From: an uncultured Pelagibacteraceae bacterium
Lineage (GTDB): Bacteria > Pseudomonadota > Alphaproteobacteria > Pelagibacterales > Pelagibacteraceae
Direction: 5' to 3'
Length of the DNA: 38,100 nt
Assembly (NCBI GenBank): GCA_902572945.1
Contig: CACGHU010000005.1
Coordinates: forward strand, 1 to 38,100
The translations under genes were made by a program, and so were the position numbers. Shown here piece by piece: positions 384 through 1,734 of the stretch (position 1 is its first letter; every line of letters starts with the position of its first letter). The notes under the pieces are model-generated. The model was not told the DNA's origin and did not search any database. It was given only the letters and a program-made list of their open reading frames with translations.

Positions 384-706
384 CATATTTAGTAAACGAT
401 AAATGTATAAAATGTAAATTGACAGATTGTGTTGATGTTTGCCCAGTTGACTGTTTTTATGAAGGAAAAAATATGCTTGTAATTAAACCTGATGAGTGTA
501 TAGATTGTGGCGTTTGTGAACCAGAGTGTCCCGTGGATGCTATTGTTCCTGACACTAACAAGGACACTGAAAAATGGTTGGAGATAAATACAAAATATTC
601 AGAAATTTGGCCAAACATAAACAAGAAAAAAGATCCACCAGACGATCATAAAAAATTTGAAAATGAAGAAAATAAATTTGAAAAGTATTTTAAAGAAAAC
701 CTTTAA
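380..706 (+). CDS. fdxA: 7Fe ferredoxin, FdxA type
   Basis: [21 protein letters not shown]...[16 protein letters not shown] cluster-binding motifs; overlaps preceding stop by 4 nt. Confidence 0.93.
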
Positions 707-1538
707 AAAAAAAAGTAAATCACCAAAAAAAGTTAAGACTAGAGTTTCAAAAACAAATAAAAAAAAAGTTACTAAAAAATCCCTAAAAACCAAAAAAACA
801 AAAATAGAAAAATTAAAAAAAATTCCACACAAAAAGACTCAAGAAAAAACAACTAGTCCTAACTTAAGAATTCTAAAGCAAAATGAACAAAAGCCTGAAA
901 TAAAAAAAATTAAAAAACAAGAAACACAAAAAAAAGATTTTAAACCTAAGGATTACGTTGTTTATCCAAAACATGGAGTGGGTCAAATATTATCTATTAA
1001 TAATAAAACCATCGGGGGCATAGAAGTGCAATGCTATGATATTAAATTTGAAAAAGATAAAGCTGTTGGTCTTTTGCCAATTAATAAACAATCTCACTTA
1101 AGACCATTATCGACTGTTAACCAAGTGAATAAATCGATATCAATCTTAAAAGGTAAGCCAAAAATTAAAAGATCGATGTGGAGCAGAAGAGCACAAGAAT
1201 ATGAACAAAAAATTACATCAGGTAAAATTTATGAATTGGCAGAAGTAGTAAGAGATTTGAATAAAGGTGATGACTTGATGGTTGATCAATCTTATAGCGA
1301 AAGACAATTATTTGAAAAAGCTTACGAAAGAATTTTGTCAGAATTTCAAATAGTCCTAAATTTGTCCTACGAAGATATTCAAAAAAAGCTTAATAAAGCC
1401 TTGCGAAGAAATTTAGAAAACCAATCACAATCAGCACCTAAACAAACTAAACAAATTCAAGAAAGTTCCGAGAGCACTAATGAAGATGAAGTTGCCGAAG
1501 ACAATGAAGTGGGACTTGTAGAGGAAAATCCAGAGTAA
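663..1538 (+). CDS. carD: CarD/CdnL-family transcriptional regulator with Lys-rich N-terminal extension
   Basis: Track ORF 657..1538 begins TTG; first ATG at 663. '[20 protein letters not shown]...' is the CarD_CdnL/TRCF RNAP-interaction domain. About 95 aa of Lys-rich sequence precede it; the start overlaps the fdxA 3' end. Confidence 0.88.
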
Positions 1539-1540
1539 AA

Positions 1541-1577
1541 AAAACGCTTCCCACACAAAAGTTATGAGAAGCGTTTT
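1541..1577. terminator. Bidirectional intrinsic terminator between carD and the small basic ORF
   Basis: Inverted repeat aaaacgcttc (1541-1550) / gaagcgtttt (1568-1577), 10-bp stem with A/T tracts on both sides, between convergent genes. Confidence 0.75.
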
Positions 1578-1591
1578 AATTCAAGAAAAAA

Positions 1592-1657
1592 CTATCTTCT
1601 TTTTTTTCTTCTTTTTTTAGCTTTTTTCTTCTTAGCTTTTTTTCTTCTTTTAGCCAT
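1592..1657 (-). CDS. Tiny highly basic protein, 21 aa: MAKRRKKAKKKKAKKRRKKRR
   Basis: Manual reverse translation of 1592-1657 (atg gct aaa aga aga aaa aaa gct aag aag aaa aaa gct aaa aaa aga aga aaa aaa aga aga tag); SD-like AGGGAG just upstream, promoter-like elements at 1706-1734, terminator downstream. Below the track's length cut-off. Confidence 0.75.
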   Translation of the reverse strand: MAKRRKKAKKKKAKKRRKKRR

Positions 1658-1705
1658 CTTTAGCTCCCTTTAGTTGCGCGAATCATTTGATTCGCTATTG
1701 AATAT

Positions 1706-1734
1706 AATTTATTTTTTTAATTAAGTTATGTCAA
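1706..1734 (-). promoter_or_regulatory. Predicted sigma70 promoter for the 21-aa ORF
   Basis: Minus strand TTGACA (1734-1729), 17-nt spacer, TAAATT (1711-1706). Confidence 0.55.

Follow-up and report, generated by a model that had tools for sequence, protein, structure and literature searches.

The rhtB RNA as a probable antisense regulator of a histone H1-like micro-protein in SAR11 bacteria

Introduction

In Chlamydia trachomatis, the stem-loop small RNA (sRNA) IhtA has a loop complementary to the start codon of hctA, the gene coding for the H1-like protein Hc1 (PMC4355289, PMC3469542). Chlamydia also has Hc2, of 165–237 aa (PMC2848022), and Pseudomonas has AlgP, of 352 aa and with an N-terminal domain (PMC9239181). 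Meyer et al. (2009; PMC2704228) described the rhtB motif, a hairpin located upstream of rhtB or proC that had no assigned target and was considered possibly a terminator or a regulatory element. In our search of the literature the motif did not reappear in any later study.

Here we have analyzed a window of 38,100 nt from an uncultured Pelagibacteraceae bacterium together with genomes of the order Pelagibacterales. The reading that we prefer, with a probability of roughly 0.72, is that the rhtB RNA would act as a trans-encoded, Hfq-independent sRNA repressing the translation of an H1-like micro-protein that would bind nucleic acids.

Results

A micro-gene convergent with carD

A preliminary description of the window, made from its letters, had proposed a minus-strand gene for a 21-aa hyper-basic protein, equipped with its own promoter, 5' palindrome, Shine-Dalgarno (SD) sequence and terminator, and had taken it for a real gene rather than AT-rich noise. 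We have recovered the ORF and all four signals (Table 1), the SD being one base off the position first given: GGGAGCTAAAGATG is found at 1668–1655 on the minus strand, with the SD sequence GGGAG 6 nt ahead of the ATG.

Table 1. Location of the micro-gene, its putative expression signals and its neighbor in the window.
Feature	Position	Strand	Description
Micro-gene ORF	1592..1657	-	21-aa hyper-basic, H1-tail-like protein, 17/21 K/R, MAKRRKKAKKKKAKKRRKKRR
Promoter TTGACA-17 nt-TAAATT	1706..1734	-	Genus consensus TTGACATAAC...TAAAAAT
5' hairpin GCGAATCA-AA-TGATTCGC	1678..1695	-	Palindrome GCGAATCAAATGATTCGC, predicted 5' end of the transcript
SD, spacer and start codon GGGAGCTAAAGATGGCTA	1651..1668	-	Perfectly complementary over 18 nt to the loop of the rhtB sRNA, encoded elsewhere in the genome
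Putative intrinsic terminator	1541..1577	-	15-pair terminator-like stem with T-run
carD	657..1538	+	Convergent neighbor, synteny anchor; CarD_TRCF_RID and CarD_C domains

This was the only ATG-started ORF of 18–45 aa with at least 60% K+R in the window, and none appeared in 60 dinucleotide-preserving shuffles. Promoter-like sites were as frequent in the window as in the shuffles, so the promoter match is weak if taken alone. Conservation speaks for it: across genomes, 131 of the 151 different sequences upstream of the gene kept TTGACATAA, at a distance of 40 nt from the hairpin in 111 of 143. The hairpin, of the type CGAATCAn(1–5)TGATTCG, is conserved in the genus (189 micro-gene loci), and CGAATCA precedes the orthologs in other genera too. 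The terminator, with its A/T flanks, likely also serves the convergent carD. An Rfam scan of the whole window gave a tRNA alone, and at the micro-gene locus no known RNA.

An ORF of 66 nt falls under common gene-caller length limits, and trypsin would cut such a protein into very short fragments, leaving no usable tryptic peptides. Both would explain why the micro-gene has been overlooked.

The CarD of this lineage has a lysine-rich, H1-tail-like N-terminal extension of ~80 residues (657–950 in the window), and this extension and the micro-protein are two polycationic products of convergent genes. Elsewhere in the same genome, another region (G000:C1:49535-49595, L032) is 77% identical in DNA to the coding part of the micro-gene; in it we looked for a K/R-rich ATG ORF and found none.

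Conservation along the order

Every Pelagibacter carD locus with enough downstream DNA had the ORF, always convergent with carD. The 199 loci parsed in the genus gave 88 distinct coding sequences (CDSs), for proteins of 21–35 aa that changed in length by whole codons. CDSs of identical proteins differed at 217 third and 7 first codon positions, and among CDSs of the same length 2220 of the 4321 differences were at third positions. Acidic codons were nearly absent (one in about 2,200), and GAA never appeared in frame, though AAA, AAG and AGA make up most of the codons. Ten further genera of the order have an ortholog beside carD, in all 26 usable loci, and in the sister family it reaches 76–91 aa, H1-tail-like and with KAAPKKKKKAA repeats (e.g., MEELKVIFAKARKKAKKKAAPKKKRKAAKRKPAKKK...). 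A CarD-anchored search in other alphaproteobacteria found a basic ORF near carD in 0 of the 29 loci examined, and therefore we treat the gene as specific to the Pelagibacterales at this locus.

The preliminary description had expected a real gene to keep its place in SAR11 genomes with synonymous changes, and this is the pattern found. The synteny, the length changes in frame, the synonymous replacements and the scarcity of acidic codons argue strongly that the micro-ORF is a real gene, present order-wide in the Pelagibacterales. In one Pelagibacter ubique assembly (L061:3727-4401) an ORF of 224 aa, of unknown family, lies between carD and the micro-gene.

Nature of the micro-protein

The micro-protein and its orthologs contain 60–81% K+R and 0–2 acidic residues. 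The order and number of the K/R/A units drift, while the composition stays. Lys/Ala/Pro low-complexity repeats with near-zero acidic residues, as in H1 tails, were found, being the repeats of the sister family of the type KAAPKKK. Profile searches of Pfam and NCBIfam with short and long forms gave no match, nor did a PDB sequence search at E up to 10. With no curated family or solved chain matching, we call the protein H1-tail-like and do not file it as a member of any family. It is probably a polycationic, disordered protein of the histone H1-tail type and, judging from composition, would bind nucleic acid by charge, probably chromosomal DNA. This agrees with one of the two functions first guessed for it, an H1-tail-like nucleic-acid binder, which the longer orthologs and the conservation of composition rather than sequence favor. 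Within this range of sizes the 21-aa form seems to mark the reduced end, with a presumed change from long to short.

A second copy of the leader in the loop of the rhtB RNA

The leader of the micro-gene contains the 14-mer GGGAGCUAAARAUG (R is A or G, just ahead of the AUG). We searched 298 Pelagibacterales genomes for it, as GGGAGCTAAARATG, with the reversed pattern as a control. The genus gave matches in 193 genomes, some 150 of which had exactly two sites, and the reversed control gave none in the 298 genomes. The second site turned out to be the loop of the Rfam RNA rhtB (RF01814), as complement: with the sequence CAUCUUUAGCUCCCGG on the Rfam strand, this loop is exactly complementary to SD plus AUG. 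Membership was assigned by a covariance-model score above the gathering cut-off (55 bits); the locus in the genome of the window (G000:C1:46262-46344) scored 76.4 bits, and 152 of 201 genomes of the genus had a match over the cut-off. These loci are thus the same RNA as that of Meyer et al. Among 30 genomes from ten other genera of the order none passed the cut-off; there were only sub-threshold matches, some of which are the carD-downstream region itself.

Two genomes showed unusual numbers of sites. One from another genus (G440) has a single exact GGGAGCTAAARATG site, a different leader at its own micro-gene and no RF01814 over the cut-off. Another (G426, 87% estimated completeness) has three leader 14-mer sites, two G-type and one A-type, either from a mixed genome or from a duplication.

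The transcribed strand could be assigned from three features. An own promoter, as expected of a trans-encoded sRNA, was found on the Rfam strand, where the extended -10 TGnTAnnnT is present in the 60 nt upstream in 67 of 71 loci, vs. 3 of 69 on the opposite strand, and starts 15–17 nt ahead of the hairpin in 65 of 71. The stem pairs comprised 557 Watson-Crick, 11 G-U and 0 A-C on this strand, a pattern expected only if the Rfam strand is the RNA. A clear T-tract, or T-rich tail, follows the stem in only 26 of 71 loci, which agrees with the description by Meyer et al. (PMC2704228). Promoter, G-U changes and T-tracts together indicate that the rhtB RNA is transcribed from the strand antisense to the leader, with its own predicted extended -10 promoter. 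Instead of a TTGACA -35 box, there is a conserved AATGCA ~36 nt upstream of the hairpin (G000:C1:46262-46344 and equivalents), where a regulator of the sRNA may act.

Predicted pairing between loop and leader

We paired the micro-gene leader with the rhtB loop in 57 parsed genomes having both sites. In 56 of them they share a complementary run of 14–20 nt that spans SD and AUG; the odd pair (G185) is a parsing error, the rhtB loop of this genome being normal. The 14-nt core gave 754 Watson-Crick cells, 2 G-U and 0 mismatches. At the variable R position the partners agreed in all 40 genomes placed on the CarD tree, on which R changed three times at each site, always in both partners. Complementarity is therefore conserved with compensatory change, yet three joint changes are too few for significance, or for a formal test by independent pairs, and they support the pairing in a suggestive way. 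Individual departures are small. In the genome of locus L100 an A-to-G change in the mRNA still pairs as G-U, in a further genome (G323) the mRNA starts its core with U, which makes one terminal mismatch with the loop, and proline-type peptides (AUGCC) retain a C-C mismatch just past the core. The sRNA of the genome of the window forms a hairpin that leaves its loop open (-19.8 kcal/mol). Its predicted duplex with the leader has -35.5 kcal/mol, and the runner-up among 45 start regions of the window has -24.0.

Leaders are fixed in the genus, where the rhtB RNA exists: two forms account for 192 of the 199 parsed loci. In the other genera, without RF01814 over the cut-off, we found 17 forms in 26 loci. 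Neither the trans-encoded antisense RNA (rhtB, RF01814) nor this fixation was visible to the preliminary description from the window. In the sister family (L304-L312) the leader of the long orthologs is strongly conserved, CTAACCTCTAACTAAACCC...GGGGGGAGAT, which hints at a different leader-based control where the rhtB RNA is absent.

Discussion

Proposed mechanism

We propose that the rhtB transcript would be an RNA of 50–85 nt, starting at GATAGTCC and antisense to GGGAGCUAAAGAUG, that forms a short hairpin with its own extended -10 promoter and a ~20-nt loop antisense to SD and start codon. The micro-gene would give a transcript of ~160 nt with a leader carrying SD and AUG, and pairing of loop and leader would occlude the ribosome-binding site of this mRNA. 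Since SD and AUG both lie within the pairing, initiation would most likely be repressed. The gene and its conservation, the sizes of the orthologs, the complementarity, the joint changes, the strand of the sRNA and the lack of Hfq or ProQ matches are all read here from sequence; we infer from them that the micro-gene and the sRNA are transcribed, that the micro-gene is translated, that the sRNA represses it in response to some trigger and that the protein binds DNA.

The occlusion would work without Hfq or ProQ. Hfq was matched in 0 of 13 largely complete Pelagibacterales genomes and ProQ in 0 of 10 (G012, G082, G155, G201, G202 and others), with the expected matches in the named controls. This suggests that the long perfect pairing may stand in for an RNA chaperone.

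Alternative explanations

Polycations promote annealing, and in genomes with no Hfq or ProQ match the micro-protein could itself be the RNA-annealing chaperone, aiding the rhtB sRNA on its own mRNA in a negative feedback like that proposed for FsrA/FbpB in Bacillus. The small basic proteins FbpA-C of Bacillus subtilis, proposed as sRNA partners (PMC7430163), offer a precedent. We consider this unlikely, since the protein is present in genera, and in a sister family, without the rhtB RNA, indicating an ancestral role independent of it, and the KAAPKKK repeats of the longer orthologs favor binding of DNA or of polyanions in bulk. Equally unlikely is a wider version in which the protein would be a general annealing or condensing factor for DNA and RNA, with the rhtB sRNA as a homeostatic feedback on its mRNA.

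The 14–20 nt shared by both loci might also be a common binding site, so that RNA or DNA of the rhtB locus mimics the leader and draws a third factor away from it. The identical SD and AUG sequence is indeed present on the sense strand of that locus. Nevertheless, promoter, G-U stem pairs and T-tracts place transcription on the antisense strand, and the match spans exactly from SD to AUG, in an open loop, which makes titration very unlikely.

Lying immediately ahead of rhtB, proC or some other gene, the hairpin may have a role in cis. That it is mainly a leader or attenuator of the amino-acid exporter gene rhtB, with the mRNA of the peptide binding the loop in trans and altering read-through, is less likely still. 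A LysE-family rhtB is found ~40 nt downstream in most loci, about a third of the loci have T-tract termination, and the peptide is nearly all Lys/Arg and Ala, a run of Lys/Arg codons. On the other hand, the downstream gene is swapped (proC, others) while promoter and hairpin persist, i.e., the unit outlives its neighbors, and the peptide is kept in other genera without the rhtB RNA.

The second function first guessed, a ribosome-associated or ribosomal peptide, recalls eL41 and bS22/mS38, and eL41 and bS22 have similar size and basicity. It is highly improbable, because a range of 21–91 aa through gain and loss of repeats and an interchangeable K/R order are unlike a protein docked on rRNA, which would have conserved length and sequence and match a known chain, and the PDB search gave none. 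Finally, a small ORF with an antisense RNA over its ribosome-binding site recalls a type I toxin-antitoxin pair encoded in trans, with the rhtB RNA as antitoxin, but typical type I toxins are hydrophobic and patchily distributed, and the hyper-basic protein has fixed synteny across the order, near-universal presence and orthologs without the RNA, which makes this reading highly improbable.

Comparison with known systems

Few cell types in the ocean are as abundant as the SAR11 bacteria, in which very few regulators are known. If the sRNA reading is correct, an RNA motif orphan since 2009 gets a single, precise and testable target: with respect to Meyer et al., the rhtB motif gains a candidate trans target and a promoter-supported strand. 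Besides, the locus brings to light a gene of the whole order that would escape standard annotation and proteomics, and the series from 85 to 21 aa would clearly exemplify a protein of which genome streamlining has left nothing but charge.

Like Hc2 and AlgP, the proteins of this family have Lys/Ala/Pro-rich low-complexity repeats and vary in length by repeat number, although the one in the window is far shorter, essentially a bare tail of 21 aa. With FbpA/B/C of B. subtilis (PMC7430163) the SAR11 case shares a small basic protein connected with an sRNA; there the protein helps the sRNA on other mRNAs, whereas here the sRNA would target the mRNA of the protein itself, and the sequences are unrelated. 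A close parallel is IhtA-hctA, in which a loop is likewise antisense to the start codon of the mRNA of an H1-like protein. The sequences are again unrelated, and the pairing differs, 14–20 nt over SD and AUG in SAR11 vs. a functional clamp of 7 nt around the AUG in Chlamydia. The hosts differ as well, SAR11 being a free-living oligotroph with no known developmental cycle and a protein of 21–35 aa. An antisense loop covering the start codon thus seems to have been recruited on two occasions to control an H1-like protein, once in Chlamydia and once in SAR11, in the latter apparently without Hfq.
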